From Pseudoxanthomonas sp. GM95 (GTDB taxonomy: Bacteria; Pseudomonadota; Gammaproteobacteria; Xanthomonadales; Xanthomonadaceae), in the NCBI RefSeq assembly GCF_900109775.1, contig NZ_FOAX01000001.1, positions 1 to 64,000 on the forward strand: 64,000 bases of DNA, written 5' to 3'. Positions 1-12,758 of the stretch are shown here, piece by piece. Below the pieces are notes generated by a model, which saw only the letters and a list, made by a program, of their open reading frames with translations, had not been told where the DNA came from and ran no database searches. Within the stretch, counting starts at the first letter, position 1; each line of letters begins with the position of its first letter. Made by a program: the position numbers and the translations under genes.

Positions 1-843
1 CAGTCACCAGACACTCGATCGACGTGGACTGAGGAGATGAGCAATGAAAAGCCCACTTGCAAAATGAGCCCGAAACAGTCAGGCAAGATAAAAGGTCGCG
101 GCACGGTCGTGTCGCGAAAGGTTGTCTGCACGTGGGTTGACGCGGCACGTCGCTACGCATGCTTTCGTGCCGTCTAAGTGCCGAAAGCCCTGCCAGCGCT
201 CGCGATTGAGGGTGCTTCCTGCGCTTGAACTTGACCGGACGCGACTAGCTGGAGTCGTCGCGCAGGGCATACACGGCCGGCGCCACCAGGCGTCTCTGGT
301 CGTTGGATGGTGCTCTTGGGTGGCGGGTAGTGGTCGGGGCTCTACAGCGCGTGCGAGAGGCCCTGCTGGCTATCTTGTAGCGCTCTGATGTGGTGACTAG
401 CTTTATGCTCCAAGAAGCCTCCGAGTCGCCTTCTGTCCTGCTTGGCTTGGCCTGCTGGATTTTGTGCGAAGGGTGGTAGCTAACGCCAGTCAAGCGAACC
501 AGCCTGAGCTCTGGGAAGGACATGATCAGGAGCCGCAGATCTTCGTTGCCTGTCTCGCAGGGCTGACAGCTGACTCGGCCAGCCTTGTCAATCGTCAACC
601 GAGCCGGGAGCCAATTCGAGTCTTCCGTACGATGTCATCGCCAGCGCATAAGCACGCGGTTGGGTCATTTGTCAGTTGTTGGCGAAGCAGCCCGAGCGGC
701 CGGGCGGCGACAGATCAAAGCTCGGTCGAGGCGGTGCGTTTGCCGCACTTTAGTGACATGAGGAGTATGGCCAGGTCCTGGCTCATCCAGCGGGTGAAGT
801 TCCTATTGACATATGGCTAGGCGCGGTAGCAGTCTGCGGCTAA
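1..843. other. Island DNA without a supportable gene
   Basis: I see no convincing gene in this stretch. Open frames of about 60 to 120 codons exist on both strands, but they start without ribosome binding sites, have no recognisable motif and read like translated non-coding DNA. Composition is below that of the core genome further right, in keeping with the accessory island. It may be decayed coding sequence. The left border of the island is not visible here. Confidence 0.5.
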
Positions 844-1015
844 GGAGCCTAGAAACTCCTCAGACAGCGGTACCCACCTCCGTCAAACCGGTGGGTTTTT
901 TGTGCCTGCGCTTCGTGGGTGCAAGCCGACGCGATGCCTGCGTCGGGAGGGCGGCTAATACAACACCCGCAAGGGAAATACGCCCGCCGGCTGTCTGCGG
1001 TTTCTAGCCTCCCGA
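844..1015 (+). ncRNA. Candidate structured RNA or leader, closed by a long imperfect helix
   Basis: Two distant segments can pair into an imperfect 20-bp helix: GGAG 844-847 with CTCC 1009-1012, CTAGAAAC 849-856 with GTTTCTAG 1000-1007, and CAGACAGC 861-868 with GCTGTCTG 990-997. Inside lie ACCCACC 872-878 with GGTGGGT 890-896, followed by six T, which resembles an intrinsic terminator on the plus strand. A perfect 7-bp hairpin also lies at 926-932/940-946. A rival stem (943-950 with 1008-1015) would exclude the hairpin and the outer helix. The element ends 56 bases before the gene at 1072, so a cis-regulatory leader on the plus strand is the simplest reading. A small RNA or a folded DNA element on the other strand is possible. 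The pairing is seen; any function is inferred. Confidence 0.45.
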
Positions 1016-1071
1016 CTTCCCGTCCGCCCACATGGCGGGCGGTCACTTCATAGTGATGAGGAGAGGCGGCG

Positions 1072-1776
1072 ATGGCCGAGCACACGTTCGACGATAAGGC
1101 GATGTTGGGGTACTTCCTGCCCGAGGATGGCCAGCTCCTGTTGAAGCAGCTAGTTGCGCACATCAGGTTCCTAGCGCGACTAGCGCAACCACGCATTCCC
1201 GATGAATCACAGGAGTGGGTGCCTGTGGTGGGGCCGGCCGAATTGATGTTCTGCCTCGACCAACTGGCAGGGCAGCTGGACCTCGTTCTCGGGGCTTTGT
1301 CTTGGCCTGCCCGGCAAGCCAAGGTGTTGGGTGAGGATGAGCTTGAGCAGACGAGAGTTCCAGGGGCCGGGTTCGCACAGTCCAGCCCCTCCGCATACGC
1401 CTGTGAGGGCAGCCTCGCTTTCGGCGCAACAGTAGATCAGATCGATAGGCTCAATGGCTTGATATCGTCCATTAGGGCACATGGCGATGTGATCTCGGCC
1501 GGTGGACTTGGCGCACTCACGGCGGGAACATTGCCTGCTCTAGGTAATGAGATTTTCGAGCGCGCCGATGAGGCGCGTCGGCTCCTTTCCCGGCTTGAGG
1601 CGCAACCGCTGAATGACCCAAGCGCCGACACGCTCTCTGTGGGTGAGAGGTTGTCTGAGTACCGCGTATGCACGGTTGTTTCGACTAAGAGCAGGCGTAA
1701 CCACCCCGAGCAACCATTTCCGTACAGCTCTGCTCGGCTAAAAGTCGGCCTTGCGCGGCTTAATGTGCGCCAGTAG
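1072..1776 (+). CDS. Hypothetical protein, XAC0095-like N-terminal region
   Basis: This encodes 234 residues with a good ribosome binding site (GGAG about 9 bases before the ATG). The first 90 residues (GYFLPEDGQLLLKQL, LARLAQPR, then FCLDQLAGQLDLVLGALSWPAR) recall the XAC0095-like family of xanthomonads, whose biochemical role I do not know. That assignment is from memory and needs a profile search. Residues 110-190 form a second, helical region with no recognised motif. The last 50 residues look irregular and basic and may be a poorly conserved tail. No signal peptide or membrane segment is seen. It lies directly behind the folded element at 844-1015 and 59 bases before the ABC-3C operon, and could be part of the same island cargo. 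Confidence 0.6.
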   Translation: MAEHTFDDKAMLGYFLPEDGQLLLKQLVAHIRFLARLAQPRIPDESQEWVPVVGPAELMFCLDQLAGQLDLVLGALSWPARQAKVLGEDELEQTRVPGAGFAQSSPSAYACEGSLAFGATVDQIDRLNGLISSIRAHGDVISAGGLGALTAGTLPALGNEIFERADEARRLLSRLEAQPLNDPSADTLSVGERLSEYRVCTVVSTKSRRNHPEQPFPYSSARLKVGLARLNVRQ

Positions 1777-1835
1777 GAGTCCTCGACAGAAGGTAAGCTA
1801 GGTGAAACGTGGTCGAGGATCCCACAGGGGGCTGG

Positions 1836-3047
1836 ATGGCATCTTCAGAAGGAAAGGCTTCACCGAGGCGCAGACGGAGGACGGAGGTTCCCGGACAGTT
1901 GCTGGGCTTCAGCCTGCAGTTTACAAGGCTCACCCATTTGCTCCTGGAGGCTCCGCCGGGGAGCGTGTGCAGTATGGAGCTGCTCGATGACGTGGCTCAG
2001 GAGGAGAGTTCCGGTGCGGTCAAGCTCGTACAGAGCAAGAGCGCACTCACGGCGAACCCGGCGGCAGATCGCGCTGAAGCGCTCTGGAAGACGCTTTCCA
2101 ATTGGGTGAGTTTCGCGGAAGAGAATGATTTCGAGCTGGATCAGTCAATCTTTGAGCTGTACGTTTCGCGCCCGGTCCAGGGCTCTATCGTCGATAGCTT
2201 TGCGGCCGCAAAGACCCCAAGCGAGGCCCGAGCGGCCCTCGCCCGGGCGCGCGACATCCTGTGGGGGAGCGCCCCGGAGTTCGACCTGAAGCCGGCGGTG
2301 GCTGCAGGCATTGCTCCATACCTTGAAAAGGTATTCAGTGCCAATCAGGCGCTTCTGGAAAGGCTGATCTGTCGCTTCCAGTTGACGACGGGAAGTGGCG
2401 ACCCGCCGCGTGATCTGCAGGATCTGGTGGCCAGCCATCCCGTGTCGCCGTCCAAAGTGGGCGATATTACCGACCACCTGTGCGGGGTAGTGAAGCGTCG
2501 CATCGATGAACTGCTGCAGGCCGGTAAGCCTGCTGTCATTGATCGCGACATGTTCCACAGCGCGTACACCGCCTACGCCCGAAAGATTGACCGGGAAACG
2601 GTGCTCCTGAGTCGTGCCTTGGCACCTACAGAAGAAGTCTCTAAAGGCTTTCTGCCTGATCACTTCATCCGCCAGCTCGAGATCATCGGGCTGTCATATG
2701 AAGAGATGCTTGAAGCGACGAGCGACTTCTTCATGGCGTCCTTCGATCGAACCGATTGGGCATTCAGGGGTGAGGTCGACCCTAGTTCGTTCGATGATCT
2801 CGATGATCTTCTCAAGCGAACATGGCAGCACAAGAAACGAGCCTGCTCGCTCAATTTCCGTGGTAGCACCGAGCAGGACCAGGGCCAGGCGTTGTACTCG
2901 GATTGTATGCAGTTCTCGGCATCGGTCCAGGCCATGGTTCCGCCTACGCATTTCGTTCCGGGATGCTTCCACCTGCTGTCCAACGATCTCGAAGTCGGTT
3001 GGCATCCCAACTACCTGGCCAGATTGAAACGTAAGGAAGTGGCTTGA
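1836..3047 (+). CDS. ABC-three-component (ABC-3C) system effector, nuclease-like N-terminus
   Basis: First gene of a three-gene conflict operon. The N-terminal 90 residues (GFSLQFTRLTHLLLEA, then MELLDDV, then KLVQSK, then LWKTLSNW) follow the pattern of the Cap4/DUF4297-like restriction-endonuclease fold, in which the acidic pair and the QxK lysine would form the active site. The remaining 300 residues, ending in GWHPNY, match what I recall of the C-terminal domain that couples ABC-3C effectors to their ATPase. The presumed job is DNA cleavage in the cytoplasm once the ATPase senses an invader; this is inferred from the family. The ATG at 1836 has AGGGGG just upstream. An in-frame GTG at 1809 with AGGTGA before it is an alternative start. 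The end overlaps the next gene by 4 bases. Confidence 0.72.
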   Translation: MASSEGKASPRRRRRTEVPGQLLGFSLQFTRLTHLLLEAPPGSVCSMELLDDVAQEESSGAVKLVQSKSALTANPAADRAEALWKTLSNWVSFAEENDFELDQSIFELYVSRPVQGSIVDSFAAAKTPSEARAALARARDILWGSAPEFDLKPAVAAGIAPYLEKVFSANQALLERLICRFQLTTGSGDPPRDLQDLVASHPVSPSKVGDITDHLCGVVKRRIDELLQAGKPAVIDRDMFHSAYTAYARKIDRETVLLSRALAPTEEVSKGFLPDHFIRQLEIIGLSYEEMLEATSDFFMASFDRTDWAFRGEVDPSSFDDLDDLLKRTWQHKKRACSLNFRGSTEQDQGQALYSDCMQFSASVQAMVPPTHFVPGCFHLLSNDLEVGWHPNYLARLKRKEVA

Positions 3048-3544
3048 ACGCACTCGCCAGGGAGGTCCAAAACGTCCAGAACCCGGCCTTGGGGGCAGCG
3101 CTTGTCTGGAGATTTTGCTGCGGATATGTCGCAGGCCACCGCGCCAGCGCACCGCCACCGCTCGCGCTTGTTTTTCTCGTCCTGCCGATCGTGCTGCATC
3201 AGGCGACTTCGGAGTTCGTGCGGCGGACCTACAAAAGCTCCGGGTTGCGAGCTTTCGCTGCAAAGTTCGGTGATGCGGCGGTATCCAAGCAGGATCTCCT
3301 GCTACAGATCCATGATCGAACCATTCGCTGGCGCGGCTTGAGTCTTCAGTCGGTCGAACTGGCCGCGGCCGGTCGCCTGATCAGCCTGGAAGAAAGTGGC
3401 GAGGTACTACCGTTGTCTCGTGCAAAGGCCAGGGGAATGGCTGATGAGGTGAAACAGCTGATGGATCTGGCAGAGAAACTAGGCTTCTGGTGTGGCGAGC
3501 TGACAGTGCATGAGGTCGTAACTACCTTGAGGGTAAAGCTCTAA
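3044..3544 (+). CDS. ABC-3C system middle component
   Basis: This encodes 166 residues and starts with TTG inside the stop region of the effector gene (TTGA overlap), so translation is probably coupled. Size, position between effector and DUF3732 ATPase, and a central FLVLPIVLHQATSEFVRRT stretch fit the small middle-component proteins of ABC-3C systems. These are helical adaptors without catalytic residues that are thought to link effector and ATPase. The run around residues 38-52 is hydrophobic, but in this family it is a buried helix and not a membrane segment. No enzymatic motif is visible. The assignment rests mainly on operon context; taken alone the sequence would be hard to place. Confidence 0.7.
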   Translation: MNALAREVQNVQNPALGAALVWRFCCGYVAGHRASAPPPLALVFLVLPIVLHQATSEFVRRTYKSSGLRAFAAKFGDAAVSKQDLLLQIHDRTIRWRGLSLQSVELAAAGRLISLEESGEVLPLSRAKARGMADEVKQLMDLAEKLGFWCGELTVHEVVTTLRVKL

Positions 3545-5529
3545 TGTATTTTCAGATTCGAGGGATCGTCCTGTGGCCACGCGATGAGCGTTTCGAGCCG
3601 AGGAAACTGAAATTCAAGCTGGGCAAGGTCAATGTCATCAGCGGCGCATCGCGCACCGGCAAGTCCGCTGTCATTCCGATCATCGATTACTGTTTGGGAT
3701 CCAGCACCTGCTCAATCCCGGTCAACACGATCCGGAAATATTGCGAGTGGTTCGGGATCGTGGTCGCGACGCCGCGGGGTGAGATGTTGCTGGCCCGAAA
3801 GGAACCTGGGTCTCAGCGCAGTACTGAAGAAATGTTCCTGCTCGAAGCCGATGTCATCAATAAAATCCCCGGTCGTCTGACCAAGAACACCACTGCGGGT
3901 GCGGTGAGAAGGTTGCTGGATGACCTGGCGAATCTTTCAAAACTGGATTTCTCGGGAGGCGAGGAAGCTGCGGGGTTCGAGGGGCGCCCGTCTTTTCGCG
4001 ACCTGGCAGCGTTCACCTTCCAGCCCCAGAACGTGGTCGCCAATCCGGATGTTCTGTTTTTCAAGACCAATACATACGAGCACCGGGAGAAGCTTCGGAA
4101 GATCTTTCCTTATGTACTCGGCGCGGTCACTCCCGCCTTGATGGCCGCGCAGTTCGAGTTGAATCGCACTCGACAAATCTTGCGCCGCAAGGAGCGAGAG
4201 CTCAAGGAAGCCCAGAATGTGTCGGCGCAGTGGATTGCCGAACTTACTGCCAAATTCAGTGAGGCCCAGGAGCTTGGACTTGTTCCAAGCTTCGAGGAAG
4301 AAGTGTCCAGGGAGCAGATGATTGAGCATCTGGAAGAAATCGTCACTCGGACGGATGTGAGTCTGAAGGTCAGCATGTCGACGATCTCCAGTGCGTTGTT
4401 GGAGCTGGAGAGCCTCGAACGTGAGGAGCGCGAGGTCTCGCGAGAGCTCACCACGCTGAGGCATCGCCTGGAGGAAATGAACCGGATGCGGGTTGGGGTC
4501 CAGCAGTACGATCAGGCACTTTCCCTGCAGCGCGGGCGCCTCCAGCTCTCCAGTTGGCTGGGCTCGCACGCTGATCATGATGCCGATTGTCCAATGTGCG
4601 GCAGCCATACTGATTCGGCCAAGCTAAAACTTAGGGCGCTTTCCCAGCGCCTCGGTGAGGTGGAGGTCATGGCGGGTGGAGGGAAGAATCTCGAGGTTCC
4701 CGCTGCTTTTGATCGCGAACTGCAGCGCGTGACTGCGGAGGTCGGCACCATGACCGAGCGCCTGAAGTCGGTTCAGGTCCGCAAGCGCGCATTGACTGGG
4801 CGATCCAAGGAGGCCAAAGAGCAGCAGTTCTCTGCAAAGCAGACTGAGCGCTTCATCGGAAATGTCGAGTCCTCGCTGAAACTGCACAGGCGGCTGGGTA
4901 GCGACAGCGAGTTGCTAGAAGAGGTGCGCTTACTCAAGGAGGCGATGCAGGCCCTTGAGAGGTCGTTGCGAGAGCAGGACGTCGAAGCAAGAAAAAATCG
5001 CGCCTTGAGGATCATCAATGGCAATGCGGCGAAGCTCCTGCCGGACTTGGATGTCGAGAATCCCGGAGACCCTATTTCGCTGGAAATCAATGACCTGACC
5101 ATCAAAGTCCATGGGTCAGATCGCGACGACTATCTATCCGAGATCGGTAGTGGCTCGAATTGGCTTTCCTACCATCTGGCAGCGCTACTAGCCTTGCATC
5201 AGTTTTACCTGAGCCAACAGCACAGTCCCGTCCCGGCTTTTTTGGTTCTTGATCAGCCTAGCCAGGTCTATTTTCCCAAACGGGTAGGGTCAAGGAGTGA
5301 TGAGGTTGAGGAGGATCCCGCGTTTCGGGATGAGGATGTTGAGGCCATCCGCAAGGCGTTTGAGGTTATGGGGAGCGTTGTCCTTGCCGAGAAAGGCAGT
5401 CTTCAGCTCATCGTGCTTGATCACGCCCCCGGTGAGGTGTGGGGAGGAATCGAAGGAATTGTCGGCCTGCCCGAGTGGCGTAACGGGACCAAGCTAGTTC
5501 CTGTGGAGTGGCTGGTCAGTGGAGCATGA
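3544..5529 (+). CDS. ABC-3C system ATPase, DUF3732 (Rad50/SMC-like)
   Basis: A 661-residue ATPase of the SMC/RecN/Rad50 type. Walker A is GASRTGKS at residues 34-41. Long heptad-rich coiled-coil arms run from about 195 to 485 and enclose a single CPMC at about 349-352, like the zinc hook of Rad50. The signature-like GSGSNWLSYH lies near 540, and Walker B is FLVLDQPSQVYFP near 565, where glutamine follows the aspartate as I recall for DUF3732 proteins. The family role is to act as sensor and regulator of the effector, probably on DNA, through ATP-dependent dimerisation. The ATG overlaps the stop of the middle component by one base, so the three genes form one tightly coupled operon. It is intact, with no frameshift. 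Confidence 0.88.
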   Translation: MYFQIRGIVLWPRDERFEPRKLKFKLGKVNVISGASRTGKSAVIPIIDYCLGSSTCSIPVNTIRKYCEWFGIVVATPRGEMLLARKEPGSQRSTEEMFLLEADVINKIPGRLTKNTTAGAVRRLLDDLANLSKLDFSGGEEAAGFEGRPSFRDLAAFTFQPQNVVANPDVLFFKTNTYEHREKLRKIFPYVLGAVTPALMAAQFELNRTRQILRRKERELKEAQNVSAQWIAELTAKFSEAQELGLVPSFEEEVSREQMIEHLEEIVTRTDVSLKVSMSTISSALLELESLEREEREVSRELTTLRHRLEEMNRMRVGVQQYDQALSLQRGRLQLSSWLGSHADHDADCPMCGSHTDSAKLKLRALSQRLGEVEVMAGGGKNLEVPAAFDRELQRVTAEVGTMTERLKSVQVRKRALTGRSKEAKEQQFSAKQTERFIGNVESSLKLHRRLGSDSELLEEVRLLKEAMQALERSLREQDVEARKNRALRIINGNAAKLLPDLDVENPGDPISLEINDLTIKVHGSDRDDYLSEIGSGSNWLSYHLAALLALHQFYLSQQHSPVPAFLVLDQPSQVYFPKRVGSRSDEVEEDPAFRDEDVEAIRKAFEVMGSVVLAEKGSLQLIVLDHAPGEVWGGIEGIVGLPEWRNGTKLVPVEWLVSGA

Positions 5530-5929
5530 GGAAGACCATTCCTGCTTCTGTTTTGCCGAAGCGCAGGCCTTATTCGACGATCATTGTCAGGCCCTGATGC
5601 GAGCGGCCAACAATCGCCTTCTTCACCGGGCTCCTGCGCCATCTACTTTGCCTTGAGCCAGACGAGCTGGCATTGACTTGGCCAGCAAGTGGATGAACAT
5701 GCAGCGACTTTTGACTGGCTTGCCGGTTCTGGGGATTCAGTAAGTTGAAGGGAAAGCCCAGCGGTCGCAAATGCTTTAGTACTTCAAACAGCTGCCCTCA
5801 GTCGGTGCGTCGATTGGAACTGTGCCGCCGTTTTGGGTCGCGGAAAATCTTGATGTATCGCAAGGAATCGGCACGGGCATCATTGTGACTGTCATCGATT
5901 ATCTGCTGGATCCGCTGTCGCTTGCTCAG
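5530..5929. other. Intergenic gap with possible gene remnants
   Basis: Four hundred bases lie between the ABC-3C operon and the convergent seven-TM gene. No complete gene is present. Plus-strand frames read like coding fragments in two places: about 5530-5650, and about 5782-5959, where a stop-to-stop frame of 58 codons with protein-like composition runs into the end of the next gene and lacks a start. These may be the decayed ends of a gene lost during island rearrangement. I see no clear intrinsic terminator for either flanking gene. Confidence 0.35.
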
Positions 5930-7012
5930 CTAATTTTTCTTGAGGTTCGGACACGGTGAGATTGAAACGATGCTCTCCTGAGGGATCCTGTAGACGGCCC
6001 CATCCTTGTCGCCAACTTTGCGAATAAGATAAGAAGAAGATGCATTTGCGTAGATCTTGACTTGAACCGTCTGCTTACTCTTTTTGTCTACAAGTTCTTC
6101 ATAATTGTTCTCACTCTCGCGGAACTTGAGATAGACGCAATTTGCATGTCCAGATGCGCTGCCGCCAATGACTTGGCCAGCCAGGTATGCACCTGTTGGC
6201 GGTACAACGCAAAGCGCAAAAATGACGCCAAGGGCTCCAAGGAAGGCTTGCAGCACGAAGCCATAGCGATCGCTAGTAACCTCGATTGCGATCACTGAAA
6301 CAAGCTGTATTGCCGGTAGAGTCAACATGGCCAAGAGCACCGCGGCGATGACAAGTCGTTCCGAGGCTGCATCGCCGACGAGCTTAATCGCGATCTGCAT
6401 GGCGGAAATTGCGAGCAGCATCTGGATTAAGCTGAAGGCCAGCGTGAGAATCGTCCCGTCCGAAACAAGGCTTCCAAGCGGCTTTTTCTTAATCCGACGG
6501 ACCATCACTGTGAACAGCACAAACGCGAATAAAATCGCGGCGAAGACTAGCCACTGCGCATCGCGAAGCCAGAGGGCTCTTGTTGCAACTGCCGCTGCAA
6601 TCAATGCGCCGGGGATGCAATAGGCGATAAACCATCGCCTGAGATCTTGCTTGCGCTGCTGCGGGTCACGCGACATCACGCGCAAGCGCCCCTTATCGTC
6701 TCGCTGTACGCCCTCGAGTATTAAAAGGGCAGGTGTCAGGATCAGCACAACCAACGTGACCGCTAAAAATGCGATTGCCGCTAACACCGATGGAAGTGAG
6801 GAAATGATGTCTGGCGATGCGATGGACAGCGGGAGATTTTCTGCCGTGGTGTAATGGTAGATACTGATGCTAGGTAGCAAGATTGCCATGATGCTAAGCA
6901 GCACAGGGTGCGCTTCTACCCAGCCCTGCGCAGTGCGAACCTCACTCAGCCAGTTTGCTGGTAGTGGTTCCATATGGCCGCTTTGTACGATTTTCCCGCC
7001 TTTCAGTGACAT
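5930..7012 (-). CDS. Seven-TM membrane protein of unknown function
   Basis: About 360 residues. The ATG at 7012 is preferred because GGAG lies about 8 bases upstream; an in-frame ATG at 7048 has poorer signals. Seven hydrophobic segments can be picked out, beginning with VLLSIMAILLPSISIYHY and ending with LGALGVIFALCVVPPTGAYL. A basic loop rich in Arg and Lys follows TM2, and a soluble tail of about 75 residues ends in CPNLKKN. I do not recognise the family. It lies 147 bases downstream of the retron RT gene on the same strand, so it may be co-transcribed and serve as an accessory or effector of the retron. Known Ec67-type retrons do not need such a partner, so the link is only positional. 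Confidence 0.65.
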   Translation of the reverse strand: MSLKGGKIVQSGHMEPLPANWLSEVRTAQGWVEAHPVLLSIMAILLPSISIYHYTTAENLPLSIASPDIISSLPSVLAAIAFLAVTLVVLILTPALLILEGVQRDDKGRLRVMSRDPQQRKQDLRRWFIAYCIPGALIAAAVATRALWLRDAQWLVFAAILFAFVLFTVMVRRIKKKPLGSLVSDGTILTLAFSLIQMLLAISAMQIAIKLVGDAASERLVIAAVLLAMLTLPAIQLVSVIAIEVTSDRYGFVLQAFLGALGVIFALCVVPPTGAYLAGQVIGGSASGHANCVYLKFRESENNYEELVDKKSKQTVQVKIYANASSSYLIRKVGDKDGAVYRIPQESIVSISPCPNLKKN

Positions 7013-7159
7013 GCCTATCTCCGCGTCAATCAGGGTTTCACACCGCATGTCCTGCAGCGCTTCTTATGCAGAGTTGGCCAGAACTCGGGCGAGCTCAAGA
7101 GTGCCTTTATTGTCATGGAGCGCCAGCGATCAAAATATCAGTTGGAGTAACATGCTTTT

Positions 7160-8869
7160 CTATGGCAGTGGAGAGCTAGACGCTTTGTGGGTGGTCACGA
7201 TTGTCGATATCGCTTCGAGAAGAGGATGGAAGCCGGAAAAATCAATTGATTTGTAGTTGGTCTTGATGACTTTTTCGGCAAACCAGGCCTTGCCGTATTC
7301 GGTTGGTTTTAAAGGTTTATTGGATAAGCTAAGTGTCTTGCCTGACAAGGTTGTAGTCAGGACGCTTTTGTCGAAAAGATGCTCAATGCAATGTCCGGTT
7401 CCGGGCGCGCACTTGGCTGAGCTGAGGACGATGTAAAGGTTGTCGTAGATGCGGATGAACTGGAGGCCATCAGCCATCTTTACTTTGTAGATCTTATCCA
7501 TCGCTGCGAAGATCGAATTCGCACCATTGTCATTGTCATAGAGCACGATCACTGGGTGAGTGCCCTTTGGGCCTTTTATTGGGCGATAGTGCTCGCGATA
7601 CTCATTGACGAAGTTTGTAAGAGGCGGATCGCCACCTGTAAGTCCGAAGATTCTTTGGCGCGTGGGTGTGTGGCTAAATAGATTGACAAGAACCTCTCCA
7701 GTGGCCGCTGCCGCTAGGCGCGGAAACGCCGAGGCAAGGCGCTTGATCGCACAGCGAAGATAGATCTCGTCGGTTTTACCCTCAAATAAAATTACCGGCC
7801 GCTCTGCATTTGCCAGTGTTGTATAGAATAGGAATCGTTTGAGAAGCTTCTCAGTGGCGCTAAGTTGCGGTGACTCGGGGTCGCCGGCCCTGCGAAATCT
7901 CTCTACTTGGAGCAAGAATCCGATCTTGCCATGCAGTTGAGCGTTGGTGCCTTCCCGAGGCTCCGAAACTGTATCTCCTGCCAGTAGTGTCGGTTTGACT
8001 AATTGATAGCAGCCTGTTCGACAGAGCTTGTCTACCATCGCGCGAGTGCTGCGACGAAAGTCAGAATTTGCGTTTAGAGTTTGATTGACAACTATGCCGG
8101 TGACATCTTGGCGTGACCGACGGTGCTGAAGCCGTGTCTTGCTTGGATTGAGCTTGAATCTGGAGTCAGCGATAGCTGACGTGACTCTAGCGCTTAGCTG
8201 CCAAGTAAGAGAATTGGCGCACTCGGTCGCAAGCGCTGCAGGGAATTCAGGCGCCGATGTGGACATCGTGATGTCGTCGGCATACCTCGTGTAGGCACAT
8301 CCGTGAATTCGGGCCAGTTTGGAAAGTCTGACGTCGAGAATCTTGCCGATGAGATTGGATAGTACTGGGGATGTCGGTGCGCCTTGGGGCAGCTGGTTCT
8401 GGTGGCAGCAGAGCTGTGCGATCAAGGTCGCTACGTCTGGATGAAGCTTGAAATATCGATTCGTTATCAGGAATCCGCGAACTCGGCCGAAATGGATCGT
8501 GCCAAAGAAGTCTTCAAGATCGAAGTTCAAAATATACCGTTGACGGCGATGGACAGCGGCGTTTGTCAGTATCGAATGATTGGGTTTGAAGCCGTGGGCA
8601 ACGCTCCGCTTGACCCCCAGAAGTAGCTCGATTTCCGCCTCGCATGACTGGAGTATCGCGGCGAGCTTCTGCTGAGCCAGCTTCAGCTGTGGGATTGGCG
8701 CATTGATGGTTCGTTTGCCGCCAGAGCGTTTGGGGATGTCAAAGGTGCTGTATCGAGCAGTGGGTGGCAGTCCCCATGCCAGAAATCCCAAGGCCTTTGC
8801 TTGAAATCCAAGCAGATTTGCAAGATCAACTACCGACGTACAAGCGTGAAGCCGACTCAGATTGCTCAT
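7160..8869 (-). CDS. Retron reverse transcriptase fused to TOPRIM (Ec67/Eco2-like)
   Basis: A 569-residue protein. Residues 40-320 are a retron RT: the retron-specific NAXXH motif is NAAVH at 103-107, the catalytic YADD is at 196-199, and the VTG motif of region Y, which recognises the msr stem, is at 256-258. The C-terminal 220 residues contain a TOPRIM fold with Glu363 in ILFEGKTDE and Asp445/Asp447 in VLYDNDNG, as in the RT of retron Ec67 (about 586 residues). The RT makes a branched msDNA from the RNA encoded just upstream. The TOPRIM part is the presumed nuclease toxin released on phage attack. The ATG at 8869 was chosen over an upstream in-frame codon at 8995 because the latter would lie inside the msr-msd RNA. 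Confidence 0.93.
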   Translation of the reverse strand: MSNLSRLHACTSVVDLANLLGFQAKALGFLAWGLPPTARYSTFDIPKRSGGKRTINAPIPQLKLAQQKLAAILQSCEAEIELLLGVKRSVAHGFKPNHSILTNAAVHRRQRYILNFDLEDFFGTIHFGRVRGFLITNRYFKLHPDVATLIAQLCCHQNQLPQGAPTSPVLSNLIGKILDVRLSKLARIHGCAYTRYADDITMSTSAPEFPAALATECANSLTWQLSARVTSAIADSRFKLNPSKTRLQHRRSRQDVTGIVVNQTLNANSDFRRSTRAMVDKLCRTGCYQLVKPTLLAGDTVSEPREGTNAQLHGKIGFLLQVERFRRAGDPESPQLSATEKLLKRFLFYTTLANAERPVILFEGKTDEIYLRCAIKRLASAFPRLAAAATGEVLVNLFSHTPTRQRIFGLTGGDPPLTNFVNEYREHYRPIKGPKGTHPVIVLYDNDNGANSIFAAMDKIYKVKMADGLQFIRIYDNLYIVLSSAKCAPGTGHCIEHLFDKSVLTTTLSGKTLSLSNKPLKPTEYGKAWFAEKVIKTNYKSIDFSGFHPLLEAISTIVTTHKASSSPLP

Positions 8870-8889
8870 GCAACGTCCCTGTATGAAGG

Positions 8890-9016
8890 TGGGGTTGCAG
8901 GAACTCCTTCGCACGCCCAGCGCGCGCCGAGCTGCACTCAGCGCCAACCGGCAAATCTTTCTTGCAATTGTTTCTGATGCCGCGAAACGCGACAACCAAA
9001 TCTTCCTGCAACCCCA
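8890..9016 (-). ncRNA. Retron msr-msd RNA, Ec67-like
   Basis: This 127-nt RNA on the minus strand lies 20 bases upstream of the RT gene. It is bounded by a perfect 14-bp inverted repeat (8890-8903 and 9003-9016), the a1/a2 repeats that retron RNAs need for priming. After a1 comes an msr hairpin with 6-bp stem (8979-8984/8988-8993, loop of three). An msd hairpin with an 8-bp stem follows (8924-8931/8937-8944, one G.U pair, 5-nt loop). The 3' part reads GTGCGAAGGAGTTCCTGCA, which agrees closely with my memory of the Ec67 RNA end. The branching guanosine is expected just inside a1. A -10-like TATGTT sits about 6 bases before the 5' end; the exact ends are inferred from the repeat. Confidence 0.88.
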
Positions 9017-9110
9017 GTGTCAACATAGCTCAAAAATGTGTGAGGCGCGAGGATGAGGAGATGTTTGATTACGATGGCGCTCTGGAGATGTTTGGCAGCA
9101 TTCGACCCCG

Positions 9111-10292
9111 TTAGCCTGTAGATGGTGGGCGGTCTAGTCGTTCAACTACAGCGCTGGCGCGGAAGAGCCGGTTGTACTTTCCTACGCCAACTACTTGAAC
9201 CATCCCGTGATCGACCAAGTGATTGAGCGCGGCGTTGGCCGCCGGTTGTGACACATGCAGCAGCTCCTTGGCGGAGCGCACGCTCAGTATCGGATGTCCA
9301 ATCAGAAGCCGCGGCAACTTGCGCACGGCCGAATCCGACCGGAAACCTGAAAGCTGCTCTTCCCAGCGCGCGGCCAGCGCGATCAAGTCATGCGAAATGG
9401 AGATCGATTCGTCGCACGACTCCACCACTGCCCGGGTGAGCAGGCGGATCCACTGATCCCACTCACCCCGTAGCTGGACCGCCGCCAGCGCGGCGTAGTA
9501 GGCCGGCTTCGCGCGCAGCAGTGCTCCGGAGAGATACAGCGGCGGAAGGCCGCTGGCAACCAGCATCAAAGGCATGAGCAGGCGCCCCACGCGGCCGTTG
9601 CCGTCGTGGTAGGGGTGGATAGTCTCGAACTGGGCATGCGTAATGGCGATCTGCCCGAGCAGAGAGAGCTCTCCATATTCGCCATCGCGCTGCTCGTACT
9701 GCAGCATGCTGCTGGCCAGTTCCTCCATGCATCCCTGGATGTGCTGCGGAGGCGCCGGGACAAACGTTGCATCTTCGATCCGCGCTGTCGGGCCGATCCA
9801 GACCTGGTCCTGCCGGTAGTCGCCGATCGGGAAGCGGCTTTCGTCATCGGCCATAAGCTGACGGTGCAGTTCATTGACCATCGCCAGATCGAGCGCTGCC
9901 CGGCCCTTGGTGCGAATCCGACCCATCCCGTAATCAAGCGCGGCGACGTAGCGCTCGGTGACCCTCACGTCTGCCGGCAGGCCATCAGCGCCACGCGTGG
10001 CCTCGTAGGCCAGCAGGTCACTTAGACTGGAACGTGTTCCTTCGATCTGCGAGCTCGTGACTGCCTCTCGCCTGGCTAGGGTCCTGGTGACCATGTCCGA
10101 GTTCGGCAGATGCTGGACCACGCCCTGCAGTCGCCCTAGCGCTGTCGCGGCTTCGCTAAAGAGTGACTGGTACCTGGCGCCGTCCGGTATCAAGCGCGGC
10201 GTCGGGGGAGCCACGAGAGCGGCGGCGTTCGGGTAGCTGGCAGCTGACACCAAGAATTGCTGGCGATCCGGTGCAATCTGGTTCCGACGCAT
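9111..10292 (-). CDS. Fic-domain AMPylating protein with C-terminal winged helix
   Basis: A 393-residue protein of the Fic family, which transfers AMP from ATP to a Ser, Thr or Tyr of a target protein. The active-site loop HPYHDGNGRVGR at residues 226-237 is intact. The class II inhibitory motif (S/T)xxxE(G/N) is present as S80-x-x-x-E84-G85 in the N-terminal part, so the enzyme is autoinhibited within the same chain. Residues 320-390 form a winged-helix DNA-binding domain, typical of the long bacterial Fic proteins that control their own expression. It has its own promoter region with repeated half-sites (10337-10427). It lies between integrase and retron; a stress or anti-phage role is possible, while the natural target is unknown. 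Confidence 0.9.
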   Translation of the reverse strand: MRRNQIAPDRQQFLVSAASYPNAAALVAPPTPRLIPDGARYQSLFSEAATALGRLQGVVQHLPNSDMVTRTLARREAVTSSQIEGTRSSLSDLLAYEATRGADGLPADVRVTERYVAALDYGMGRIRTKGRAALDLAMVNELHRQLMADDESRFPIGDYRQDQVWIGPTARIEDATFVPAPPQHIQGCMEELASSMLQYEQRDGEYGELSLLGQIAITHAQFETIHPYHDGNGRVGRLLMPLMLVASGLPPLYLSGALLRAKPAYYAALAAVQLRGEWDQWIRLLTRAVVESCDESISISHDLIALAARWEEQLSGFRSDSAVRKLPRLLIGHPILSVRSAKELLHVSQPAANAALNHLVDHGMVQVVGVGKYNRLFRASAVVERLDRPPSTG

Positions 10293-10336
10293 GAGCAGTC
10301 CCTTGAGCGTTAGTCTTATAGACGCGCTCGATTTTG

Positions 10337-10427
10337 ATAAGGATAGTCATCTAACCTTATTTATTGCGCTCGATCAATAAGGATGTCTCCATAGCCTTAT
10401 AATTAAGGGTGGCCTTTATAAGGCTAT
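10337..10427 (-). promoter_or_regulatory. Operator-like array of ATAAGG/CCTTAT half-sites upstream of fic
   Basis: Five copies of a hexamer alternate in orientation: ATAAGG 10337-10342, CCTTAT 10355-10360, ATAAGG 10377-10382, CCTTAT 10395-10400 and ATAAGG 10418-10423. Spacings are 18, 22, 18 and 23 bases. The rightmost pair belongs to a perfect 12-bp inverted repeat (10391-10402/10416-10427). The array is AT-rich and lies in the gap between the fic start and the integrase, so it probably holds the fic promoter. The natural candidate ligand is the winged helix of the Fic protein itself, giving autoregulation. The repeats are seen; the ligand is inferred. Confidence 0.55.
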
Positions 10428-10476
10428 TGCTTTTGTCAGTGGTGAGCAGGCGAGACGAAGGTGCAGGAGATTCGCC

Positions 10477-10578
10477 ATGGATTTGGCTACTCGCCTTGGC
10501 CTGGATGAGCTGGAGCCCTTCAAATGGGAAGAGCCGAGGCGGGCATCGGAACCTCGTATTGCACGGGTGCCTCCATGA
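10477..10578 (+). CDS. Small ORF, possible truncated gene
   Basis: A 33-codon frame with a good ribosome binding site (AGGAG, 7 bases before the ATG) lies just right of the half-site array and runs into the 3' end of the convergent integrase gene. The product begins MDLATRLGLDELEPFKWEEP and matches nothing I know. It could be a real micro-protein sharing the divergent fic promoter, or the stump of a longer gene cut when the integrase arrived. Confidence is low because such short frames occur by chance. Confidence 0.25.
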   Translation: MDLATRLGLDELEPFKWEEPRRASEPRIARVPP

Positions 10579-11647
10579 CGAAGTTCTGCGGCGAAGCGGC
10601 GCGCTGGCGGTCTCGATACAGGTTCTGGGGGCGCAGGTGGGTATAGCGCTTGAGCATCTTCCAGTCCCGATGGCCCGTGACCAGCGCGACCTGCTCGATT
10701 CTCAGCCCAGACTCAAATAGGCGGCTCGTCGCCTCGTGTCTCAAATCGTGGAAGTGGAGGTTCTCGATCTTGAGTTCCTTGCAGGCGCGGCGGAAGGCGG
10801 CGCCCACTGAGCGCGGGTTGTAAGGAAAGATCAGGTCGCCGAGGGGGACGTATTTGCGCTGGATGCGGATCAGGCGCAGGGCGTCCAGGCCCCCGACGTT
10901 GAGCAGCGGCACCCATTGGTCGTTGCCGTCCTTCTCCCGCGGGTCTTTTCGGTCCTGGACCAGAACGACGCGCTGTTCTGTGTCCACCTTGCTCCAGCAG
11001 ATCCTGCAGATCTCTTCCTGCCGCATCGCGCTGGCGATCGCGAACCGCACGATGCGCGCCAGGGGGATCAGGGACTGGGGTTTGGCATCCAGGTAGTCAA
11101 GGAGGCGTTTTAGCTCCAGCTTGGTTGGGCGGCGATCGCGCGCGCGCGACTTGCCGATCAGTCCCAGGCGCTTGAGCGCCACGCGCGCCAGATCGACCGG
11201 TTGCACGTCGACATCGATCCCGTGCACGGCTGCGGCGTGCGTCAGTACCAACTTCAGGTACCCGATGTCGGAGCTGAGGGTGACCGGCCCAGCCCCCTCC
11301 CGGGCCCGGTCCTTTCCGAACTGAATCAGGCACTCGCGCGTCAGTCCCTTGAGCTTGACCTCGCCGAGTTGATCCTTGAGCGCGTTCAGCGTGAATCGCT
11401 TGGAGCGGCGTAGTACCTTGCCCACTTCGCGCATGTCTTCGATGTGTAGATCCACTAGGTGCGCAAAAGTGGTCGGGGTGGCCTGACCTCGGCGGCGCGG
11501 CGTCCGGCCCAGATCGACCTCACGCTCGGCCGCGGTAGCCCACTTGCGGGCATCTTCATGGCGCAGGAAAGTCTCGCTCGCATACGATTGCTTGCGTCGG
11601 ACTTGGACTCGCCATCTACCGGATGGAAGCTGGGTGATCGTCGCCAT
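10520..11647 (-). CDS. Tyrosine-type integrase, dusA-associated family
   Basis: A 375-residue site-specific recombinase. The N-terminal part (GRWRVQVRRK) is the usual arm-binding domain, followed by a SAM-like core-binding domain and the catalytic domain, with Arg in SAMRQEE, HDLRH, the GHRDW histidine and the tyrosine in KRYTHL all present. The start at 11647 was chosen because the upstream extension to 11866 would run through the repeat cluster and into dusA. The gene is divergent from dusA, separated by 130 bases, exactly the arrangement described for integrases of islands and prophages that insert into the 5' end of dusA. It appears intact, so excision may still be possible. No excisionase gene is recognised nearby. 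Confidence 0.93.
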   Translation of the reverse strand: MATITQLPSGRWRVQVRRKQSYASETFLRHEDARKWATAAEREVDLGRTPRRRGQATPTTFAHLVDLHIEDMREVGKVLRRSKRFTLNALKDQLGEVKLKGLTRECLIQFGKDRAREGAGPVTLSSDIGYLKLVLTHAAAVHGIDVDVQPVDLARVALKRLGLIGKSRARDRRPTKLELKRLLDYLDAKPQSLIPLARIVRFAIASAMRQEEICRICWSKVDTEQRVVLVQDRKDPREKDGNDQWVPLLNVGGLDALRLIRIQRKYVPLGDLIFPYNPRSVGAAFRRACKELKIENLHFHDLRHEATSRLFESGLRIEQVALVTGHRDWKMLKRYTHLRPQNLYRDRQRAASPQNFVMEAPVQYEVPMPASALPI

Positions 11648-11649
11648 TT

Positions 11650-11739
11650 CGTGTGCGCTCCGTGTGCAATGGGGCGTCGTAGTAGGGCGTTTTGGGGCGA
11701 AAACCAGTGCACACGAGCGTGCACACGAGCGTGCACACG
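11650..11739. repeat. Short direct repeats between integrase and dusA
   Basis: On the plus strand GTGCACACGAGC occurs twice in tandem (11707-11718, 11719-11730) and a third partial copy GTGCACACG follows at 11731-11739. The related word CGTGTGC, in the opposite sense, occurs at 11650-11656 and 11661-11667. Such clusters beside an integrase gene are typical of arm-type binding sites for integrase or excisionase, or of an operator for the integrase promoter. Confidence 0.55.
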
Positions 11740-11777
11740 GCCTGTTCATGCTATTGATTTTACGAGATAAGTGACTG

Positions 11778-11840
11778 ATGTACAACGGGAAAAAATTGTC
11801 CGTGGCTCCTATGATGGACTGGACCGACCGGCATTGCCGG
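11778..11840 (+). other. Right attachment site of the island at the 5' end of dusA (approximate)
   Basis: Islands with this integrase family recombine within the first codons of dusA, in the stretch encoding SVAPMMDWTDRHCR. Here that stretch begins at 11799, and the codons before it, together with the promoter, are expected to come from the island and restore the gene. The exact crossover cannot be fixed without the second copy, which I did not find in the window. Confidence 0.5.
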
Positions 11841-12758
11841 GCGTTCCACCGCGTGCTGGCGCCCAACGCGCTGCTCTACACCGAGATGGTCCATGCCAAC
11901 GCGGTACTGCAGGGCGATCGCGAGCGGCTGTTGGGTTTCGATGCGGTTGAGCATCCGGTTGCCCTGCAATTGGGTGGCAGCGATCCCGAACGCCTGGCCG
12001 CAGCCACGCGGGTGGGCGAGGAATTCGGCTATGACGAGGTCAACCTCAACGTCGGCTGCCCGTCCGATCGCGTGCAGGCCGGGCGCTTTGGCGCCTGCCT
12101 GATGAAGGAGCCTTCGCTGGTGGCCGAATGCATCGCCGCCATGCGCGAAGCCGTCGCGATCCCGGTCACGGTGAAGTGCCGGCTGGGCGTGGACGAGCTC
12201 GAGGACTATGACCACTTCGCTGGCTTCATCGACACCATCGCCGCGACCGGCTGCGACACCTTCATCGTGCATGCGCGCAAGGCCTGGCTCGATGGCCTGT
12301 CGCCGAAGGAAAACCGCGAGATCCCGCCGCTGCGCTACGAATGGGCCTACCAGCTCAAGCGCGAGCGCCCGCAGCTCAACATCTCGCTCAACGGCGGCAT
12401 CACCACGCTGGAGGCGATCGACACGCATCTGGGTGCAGTCGATGCGGTGATGCTGGGGCGCAGCGCATATCACGATCCATACTTCCTGCATTGCGCCGAC
12501 GCGCACCTGGCCGGCACCGCGTTGCGCCCGCGCGCCGAGCTGCTGCGCGCGCTGCAGCCGTACGTCGAAGCGGCGCTGGCCCGCGGCGTGGCGCTCAAGC
12601 ACATCACGCGCCACGTGCTGGGCCTGTTCGCCGGCCAGCCCGGTGGCCGCCAGTTCCGTCAGATCCTGAGCGAAGGCGCGCACAAGCCGGGCGCAGACTG
12701 GTCGCTGGTCGAGCGCGCGCTGGACGCCACCGACGCTGCCCTGGCCAGCGCGGCCTGA
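11778..12758 (+). CDS. dusA: tRNA-dihydrouridine(20/20a) synthase DusA
   Basis: This 326-residue flavoenzyme reduces uridines 20 and 20a in the D-loop of tRNAs with NADPH. The TIM barrel carries SVAPMMDWTDRHCR near the start, the catalytic cysteine in LNVGCPSDRVQ at about residue 94, and an FMN phosphate site at LNGGI and MLGRSAY. The C-terminal helical domain with HITRHVLGLF is complete. The first seven residues differ from what I would expect of chromosomal xanthomonad DusA and are probably contributed by the integrated island, which also supplies the promoter. The reading frame is intact, so the host keeps the enzyme despite the insertion. Confidence 0.97.
   Translation: MYNGKKLSVAPMMDWTDRHCRAFHRVLAPNALLYTEMVHANAVLQGDRERLLGFDAVEHPVALQLGGSDPERLAAATRVGEEFGYDEVNLNVGCPSDRVQAGRFGACLMKEPSLVAECIAAMREAVAIPVTVKCRLGVDELEDYDHFAGFIDTIAATGCDTFIVHARKAWLDGLSPKENREIPPLRYEWAYQLKRERPQLNISLNGGITTLEAIDTHLGAVDAVMLGRSAYHDPYFLHCADAHLAGTALRPRAELLRALQPYVEAALARGVALKHITRHVLGLFAGQPGGRQFRQILSEGAHKPGADWSLVERALDATDAALASAA

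Follow-up and report, generated by a model that had tools for sequence, protein, structure and literature searches.

A complete-looking Eco2-like retron and its predicted template RNA in a dusA island of Pseudoxanthomonas sp. GM95

The closest described system is the retron Eco2 (Ec67) of Escherichia coli (PDB entries 9lm3, 9i2f, 9i2g, and 9s1f). In the study of this retron (PMC12405507), Eco2 is presented as an inhibited trimer held by msrRNA, and its TOPRIM domain, when free, as a toxic RNase. The loop of residues 328 to 342 is described there as the trimer interface, and the substitution R332A abolishes defence. Furthermore, escaper phages carry denB mutations, and the single-stranded DNA endonuclease DenB is implicated as the trigger. 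The motif names NAXXH, YADD, and VTG for the retron reverse transcriptase (RT) are used here as in that source.

The locus described here lies in a stretch of 64,000 nucleotides from the start of contig NZ_FOAX01000001.1 of Pseudoxanthomonas sp. GM95, which we refer to as the window. A first-pass annotation had proposed a complete Ec67/Eco2-like retron with its msr-msd RNA upstream of a fused RT and TOPRIM gene, and our analysis agrees with it: the protein matches the NF038237 and RT-Toprim_I-C models and aligns with Eco2 over its full length, and the RNA gene was recovered at the same place. The locus is very probably a type I-C (Ec67/Eco2-family) retron with the msr-msd RNA placed as in Table 1. 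The gene, the RNA, its covariation, and the catalytic residues can be read from the sequence, and together they make strong support for a small, complete-looking, and presumably anti-phage retron of a kind already known. With 36.5% protein identity, it is a distant relative of Eco2. Apart from the template RNA and one point about the trimer loop, it is a further example of a known defence system with a published mechanism.

Table 1. Features of the retron and its surroundings, in positions of the window
Feature	Position	Strand	Basis or remark
RT-TOPRIM fusion gene	7160-8869	-	569 amino acids, ATG at 8869, stop included; NF038237, RT-Toprim_I-C, phmmer match to Eco2
RT domain (approximate)	7799-8869	-	Pfam RVT_1, 6.5e-19 at residues 45-259; border from alignment to Eco2
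TOPRIM effector domain (approximate)	7160-7798	-	Alignment to Eco2 catalytic residues E374, D378, D460, D462, and E515
RT motif NAAVH	8549-8563	-	Residue 103
RT motif YADD	8273-8284	-	Residue 196
RT motif VTG	8096-8104	-	Residue 256
TOPRIM motif EGKTDE	7766-7783	-	Residue 363
TOPRIM motif DND	7529-7537	-	Residue 445
TOPRIM residues E496 and K527		-	K527 conserved
msr-msd non-coding RNA gene	8890-9016	-	127 nt; covariance model built without the window matches 8891-9015
a1 arm of inverted repeat, TGGGGTTGCAGGAA	9003-9016	-	Inverted-repeat search; covariation in relatives
a2 arm of inverted repeat, TTCCTGCAACCCCA	8890-8903	-	Inverted-repeat search; covariation in relatives
Predicted branch guanosine, equivalent of Eco2 rG15	9002	-	First base past a1; AGA there invariant in 20/20 relatives and the window
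msr stem-loop with UUU loop	8976-8996	-	Fold; helix 2: 95.7% of cells paired, 6/7 pairs with two-sided changes
Predicted msd template	8905-8966	-	msDNA of about 62 nt, 5' T opposite A8905; placed by homology, end uncertain by a few bases
Tyrosine integrase of dusA island	10520-11749	-	Pfam Phage_integrase, 1.4e-24; first ATG 11749; context, outside retron
dusA, integration site	11778-12758	+	Pfam Dus, 1.3e-77; context

The RT-TOPRIM protein compared with Eco2

The protein was recognized by the NCBIfam model NF038237 for the polymerase/endonuclease of the retron Ec67 family (625.4 bits against a cut-off of 450, residues 4 to 559) and by the PADLOC model RT-Toprim_I-C (2.7e-204, residues 1 to 565). 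Six of the best 25 of 51 PADLOC families were RT-Toprim_I-C models, 4 of which ranked at the top, followed by the RT-TIR and RT-protease retrons. These last 2 groups (types XII and XI, respectively) share a related RT domain but carry another effector domain, and the Retron_TIR model scored 297.5 bits against a cut-off of 600. The search with phmmer against the PDB sequences matched the Eco2 chain 9lm3_A (4.5e-100, residues 2 to 562) and 9i2f (about 5e-100). The reading frame is open and free of stop codons. A longer open reading frame starting with TTG extends into the msd, beyond the RT gene at 7160-8869.

The similarity to Eco2 covers the full-length fusion, the RT motifs, and the acidic residues of the TOPRIM domain. 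All 3 RT motifs named in the first-pass annotation are present, as are the EGKTDE and DND motifs of the C-terminal TOPRIM domain, in which residues E363, D367, D445, D447, and E496 were assigned by homology from the alignment to Eco2; the Pfam search of the protein gave no TOPRIM match. The aromatic residue F46 (F43) of the RT was also retained in this alignment. K527, the equivalent of Eco2 K546, was invariant in all 17 aligned proteins, a set that includes the window and leaves out L038 and L002. It was also noted that PMC12405507 names K562 as the catalytic lysine, while chain 9lm3_A has D at position 562 when numbered so as to match the remaining TOPRIM and YADD residues that were checked; in Eco2 numbering, the lysine invariant in the 17 proteins is K546. 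The Eco2 DNA was taken from E. coli NCTC8623 (NZ_LR134234, locus L047), which encodes the 577 Eco2 residues compared with 100% identity.

The window protein differs from Eco2 at several sites of structural interest. The trimer-interface loop of residues 328 to 342 is absent, D280 takes the place of H281, the Eco2 residue that stacks against the msr loop, and C494 that of the metal-B ligand S513; the details of assembly may therefore differ from those of Eco2. The trimer-contact residues D331, R332, and Y333 fall in an alignment gap in the window protein and in 11 of the 16 other relatives (12 of 17 proteins), and position 513 as well as the loop and H281 positions also vary among the aligned proteins. 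Thus, the published trimer contact of Eco2 may not be general, or other contacts may replace it in these proteins. The missing loop is the one point of biochemical interest in an otherwise ordinary family member.

The closest relatives found, L022 (in genome G149) and L023 (in genome G365), come from genomes of the same taxonomic family as the window. Their proteins are 53% to 54% identical to the window protein and also lack the trimer loop, their RNAs are 78% to 84% identical to the window RNA, and among the 21 RNAs only these 2 and the window RNA contain the block GAGTGCAGC in the msd. We tentatively suggest that one branch of the type I-C retrons, that of the window included, could restrain the TOPRIM domain without the thumb loop of Eco2, with assembly on the msr RNA alone or with another stoichiometry, and that the conserved GAGTGCAGC block could form a lineage-specific part of the sensor, a proposal that we consider possible but doubtful.

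The template RNA and the conserved cassette

The first-pass annotation had described a perfect 14-bp repeat that bounds 127 nt and begins 20 nt upstream of the ATG at 8869, and this was confirmed. The whole 64-kb window has 23 perfect inverted repeats with arms of at least 10 bp and spans of 100 to 165, and the pair TGGGGTTGCAGGAA/TTCCTGCAACCCCA is the longest among them. The 127-nt sequence folds at -63.8 kcal/mol compared with a mean of -45.8 kcal/mol for shuffled sequences (z -4.98), and none of 200 shuffles reached as low a value. The annotation had tied its reading to the presence of the repeat in close homologues, and L022 and L023 indeed contain it, with 14 and 13 pairs, respectively, each including one G-U pair.

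To compare the RNA across the family, we started from 23 rows of RT matches, 4 of which were excluded: L001 and L024 are copies of the window, L029 is a copy of L021, and the RT match in L036 begins at residue 161, near the end of the locus. For the RNA comparison, L038 was retained despite an RT that reads in 2 pieces, and L002 despite an RT truncated at the contig end. The final set of 20 relatives consisted of 18 retained relatives together with Eco2 (L047) and L046, with the window left out. All 18 retained relatives have an inverted repeat directly upstream of the RT gene, with 11 to 14 pairs (G-U pairs counted) and a span of 121 to 147 nt; because the arms were chosen by taking the best inverted repeat, the pairing of helix 1 is in part built into the comparison. 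The msr stem-loop (helix 2) and the 2 short sequence blocks were not selected beforehand. These blocks, A-G-A just past a1 and G-A-G-T at the junction of the msd and a2, were invariant in the 20 aligned relatives, and both are present in the window.

Across the 20 relatives, 98.3% of the 410 cells were paired, as compared to a mean of 78.4% after shuffling and 29% to 48% when the alignment was slid. Two-sided changes were observed in 18 of the 21 pairs, and the covariation score was 0.703 versus 0.297 for the shuffled and at most 0.153 for the slid alignments. The covariance model inferred from these relatives matched the window RNA (86.9 bits, E 7e-19), which was the only match in the window up to an E-value of 10. 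The same model gave no other match up to an E-value of 1 when it was run against the genome of 4.69 Mb, with scores computed for 150 of the 157 first-look candidates. The placement of the msr-msd RNA by the first-pass annotation is thus upheld by a model from which the window was left out.

Searches against Rfam over positions 8800 to 9120, both at the gathering threshold and with E-values up to 10, returned no retron family, nor did searches over the Eco2 locus, L040, L022, and L023. For type I-C retrons, the present analysis provides a template RNA supported by sequence evidence together with a covariance model; neither the window RNA nor that of Eco2 had a match in Rfam release 15.

The RNA of Eco2, located at positions 1549 to 1679 of L047 in agreement with the residue numbering of PMC12405507, resembles the window RNA in its a1/a2 repeat, the AGA branch block, the msr stem-loop, and the 3' end with GTGCGAAGGAGT and CCTGCA. 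The 3' end had been singled out in the first-pass annotation as similar to Ec67, and GTGCGAAGGAGTTCCTGCA is indeed equal to the Eco2/Ec67 RNA (L047, E. coli NCTC8623) in 18 of 19 bases. However, its core, GCGAAGGAG, was found in only 2 of the 20 relatives, Eco2 and L022, which means that this similarity to Ec67 is not general for the family. The 2 RNAs differ in the msr loop, which is AAU in Eco2 and UUU in the window, and in the msDNA, which is 67 nt in Eco2 and predicted to be 62 nt here. The surroundings also differ, in that the Eco2 locus L047 adjoins phage portal and terminase genes, whereas the window retron sits in a dusA island.

We noted a -10-like element 3 to 22 nt before a1 in 16 of 21 loci, compared with 7.3 expected from mononucleotide shuffles. 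The sole such element before a1 in the window is weak (TATGTT), and a promoter scan found none.

The window RNA is 78.0% and 84.4% identical to those of L022 and L023, versus 55.2% and 55.4% for the RT genes. In the 127 nt before the RNA, the identities drop to 22.4% for L022 and 16.0% for L023, values reached by 37 and 55 of 60 shuffles, respectively, and in the next 127 nt further upstream they are 39.1% and 31.6%, reached by 7 and 41 of 60 shuffles. Past the RT gene, the window flank shares 21.1% identity with L022 (51 of 60 shuffles) and 42.4% with L023, the latter value being reached by only 2 of 60 shuffles. Since the RNA is more conserved than the gene and 5 of the 6 flank comparisons are at shuffle level, the RNA and the RT gene stand out as a conserved cassette, and the comparison suggests that the mobile unit is, by and large, the RNA plus RT-TOPRIM. 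The border of the cassette is less sharp on the downstream side of L023, which may share something with the window. The upstream flanks of L022 and L023 are 39.8% identical to each other, above every shuffle (0 of 60).

Neither the protein encoded at 5930-7048 nor the Fic protein had a tblastn match in the available flanks of the relatives (mostly about 1.5 kb downstream), as would be expected of a system with a single effector gene. The 5930-7048 gene (minus strand, 372 amino acids), located directly downstream of the retron, was accordingly dropped as a candidate partner. Its product has long hydrophobic stretches by eye and had no match in Pfam, NCBIfam, or PADLOC.

Proposed mechanism

By analogy with Eco2, we infer the branching, the msDNA length, the inhibition, the RNase activity, and the trigger for the window retron, and production of msDNA and defence against phages are predictions on the same footing. 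The RNA, transcribed from 9016 towards 8890, would fold with a1 paired to a2, and the RT would prime from the 2'-OH of G9002 and reverse-transcribe the msd, beginning at A8905 and proceeding to about 8966. This would yield branched msDNA, about 62 nt long and beginning with TCCTTCGCAC, which would stay bound to the RT-TOPRIM protein, and the bound msDNA and msr RNA would hold the TOPRIM nuclease inactive. A phage product that damages or removes the msDNA would free the TOPRIM domain, which would then cleave RNA and halt the infection while sacrificing the cell. The whole of this mechanism, including the RNase and the trigger, probably applies to the window retron.

The template limits were predicted by a rule for the Eco2 msd, according to which the template extends from the base after AAU to the A located 2 bases before a2, giving 67 nt in the numbering of PMC12405507; as the rule was derived from Eco2, the recovery of 67 nt is an arithmetic check and no independent test. 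Applied to the window, it gives 62 nt, with a template from 8966 to 8905 and the branch at G9002, the 3' DNA end being uncertain by a few bases.

A different outcome would be that msDNA is made but that the TOPRIM domain cleaves DNA, as in OLD/GajA, rather than RNA, or that the trigger is something other than a DenB-like nuclease. This is unlikely, although the TOPRIM fold is common to the OLD and Gabija nucleases (PMC12405507), the identity to Eco2 is as low as 36.5%, and S513 is replaced by C494. The window protein has the same invariant acidic residues as the RNase-active domain of Eco2, and position 513 varies among the 17 aligned proteins, which both argue against this alternative.

It is also quite improbable that the retron has decayed or is silent, with an intact gene and RNA that are unexpressed or inactive in this host. 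The weak promoter signals would fit such a state, as would the presence of the full protein only in the window's own genome among 38 of the genus, which suggests that the retron may be recent cargo. However, the frame has no stops, the catalytic residues are kept, and the RNA is more conserved than the gene, all of which speak against such a state. That the 127-nt repeat arose by chance, as one of 23 perfect repeats of at least 10 bp with a similar span in the window, and that the true template RNA lies elsewhere can be considered refuted, given that it is the longest of the 23, has the right place and orientation, contains the invariant AGA and GAGT blocks, shows covariation, is more conserved than the gene, and is matched by a model built without the window.

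The dusA island and the distribution of the family

The first-pass annotation had embedded the retron in a dusA island, for which we found support in the adjacent integrase, a drop in GC content, and the varying 5' ends of dusA in relatives. The integrase adjoins the 5' end of dusA and faces it, and the GC content by kilobase is 0.50 to 0.62 over bases 1 to 11000 versus 0.68 beyond 13000. A dusA match was obtained in 36 other genomes of the genus, 19 of which were examined as loci; upstream of the conserved dusA block, the DNA of these 19 varies, with some groups alike. The stretch before dusA and the dusA start in L055 and L067, from the same genus, resemble the window by eye, which suggests related dusA elements there. 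Islands of this type at dusA are reportedly already known.

The window begins at base 1 of its contig, and the far end of the island thus lies beyond the contig start. In the search for att repeats, the window yielded a single shared 11-mer, and no second copy in the genome was convincing. A match named C5 was rejected as the att site, as it reads as a terminator-like hairpin and not as dusA.

Other genes in the window include 3 of the ABC-three-component type at 1809-5529 (plus strand), encoding a CTD7 protein, an MC3 middle component, and a DUF3732 protein. They match the PADLOC models LmuA, LmuC, and LmuB (Lamassu-like), respectively, and are likely to represent a second defence system in the island. 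A candidate third defence gene at 9111-10292 (minus strand) encodes a Fic protein with Fic_N, which matched the PADLOC model SoFic at 1.4e-84 and the NCBIfam SoFic model at 103 bits, below the cut-off of 550. It was also noted that the small RNA sRNA-Xcc1 (RF02221, 77.3 bits) is located at 942-1024 (plus strand), within the low-GC stretch, a match that agrees with the xanthomonad origin suggested in the first-pass annotation.

Ec67-type retrons had been regarded in the first-pass annotation as known from enterobacteria, but the family is not confined to them, as full-length relatives were identified on plasmids of Caballeronia, Sinorhizobium, Rhizobium, Sphingomonas, Enterococcus, and Staphylococcus. 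A literature search by title and abstract, with thin coverage of subscription journals, found no paper on an Ec67-type retron of Xanthomonas. Within the genus, 8 of 38 genomes had some RT match, with a full-length match only in the window's own. With that genome included, the NF038237 cut-off was exceeded in 4 of 395 genomes of the family, 2 of 369 in the class sample, and 6 of 398 in the phylum sample, and in none of 14 control genomes in the family, class, or phylum searches. Two of 398 genomes in the order sample matched the protein query at 1e-70.

A scan of genome contigs by exact peptide patterns recovered 11 relatives from 42 candidate stretches (best 38%), while the viral contigs yielded one distant RT from 6 candidates. 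One full-length relative, 36% identical, was found among 29 phage records, and 16 of the 129 plasmid records with any match covered at least 80% of the query, Gram-positive hosts included; 8 of these 16 were retrieved as loci. The Ec67 family is thus wide but sparse. The retron in L040, which is 50% identical to Eco2, is a related but distinct member of the family, and matches to it were found in 538 of 5,426 complete E. coli genomes, with at least 99% DNA identity in 510 of the 5,426.
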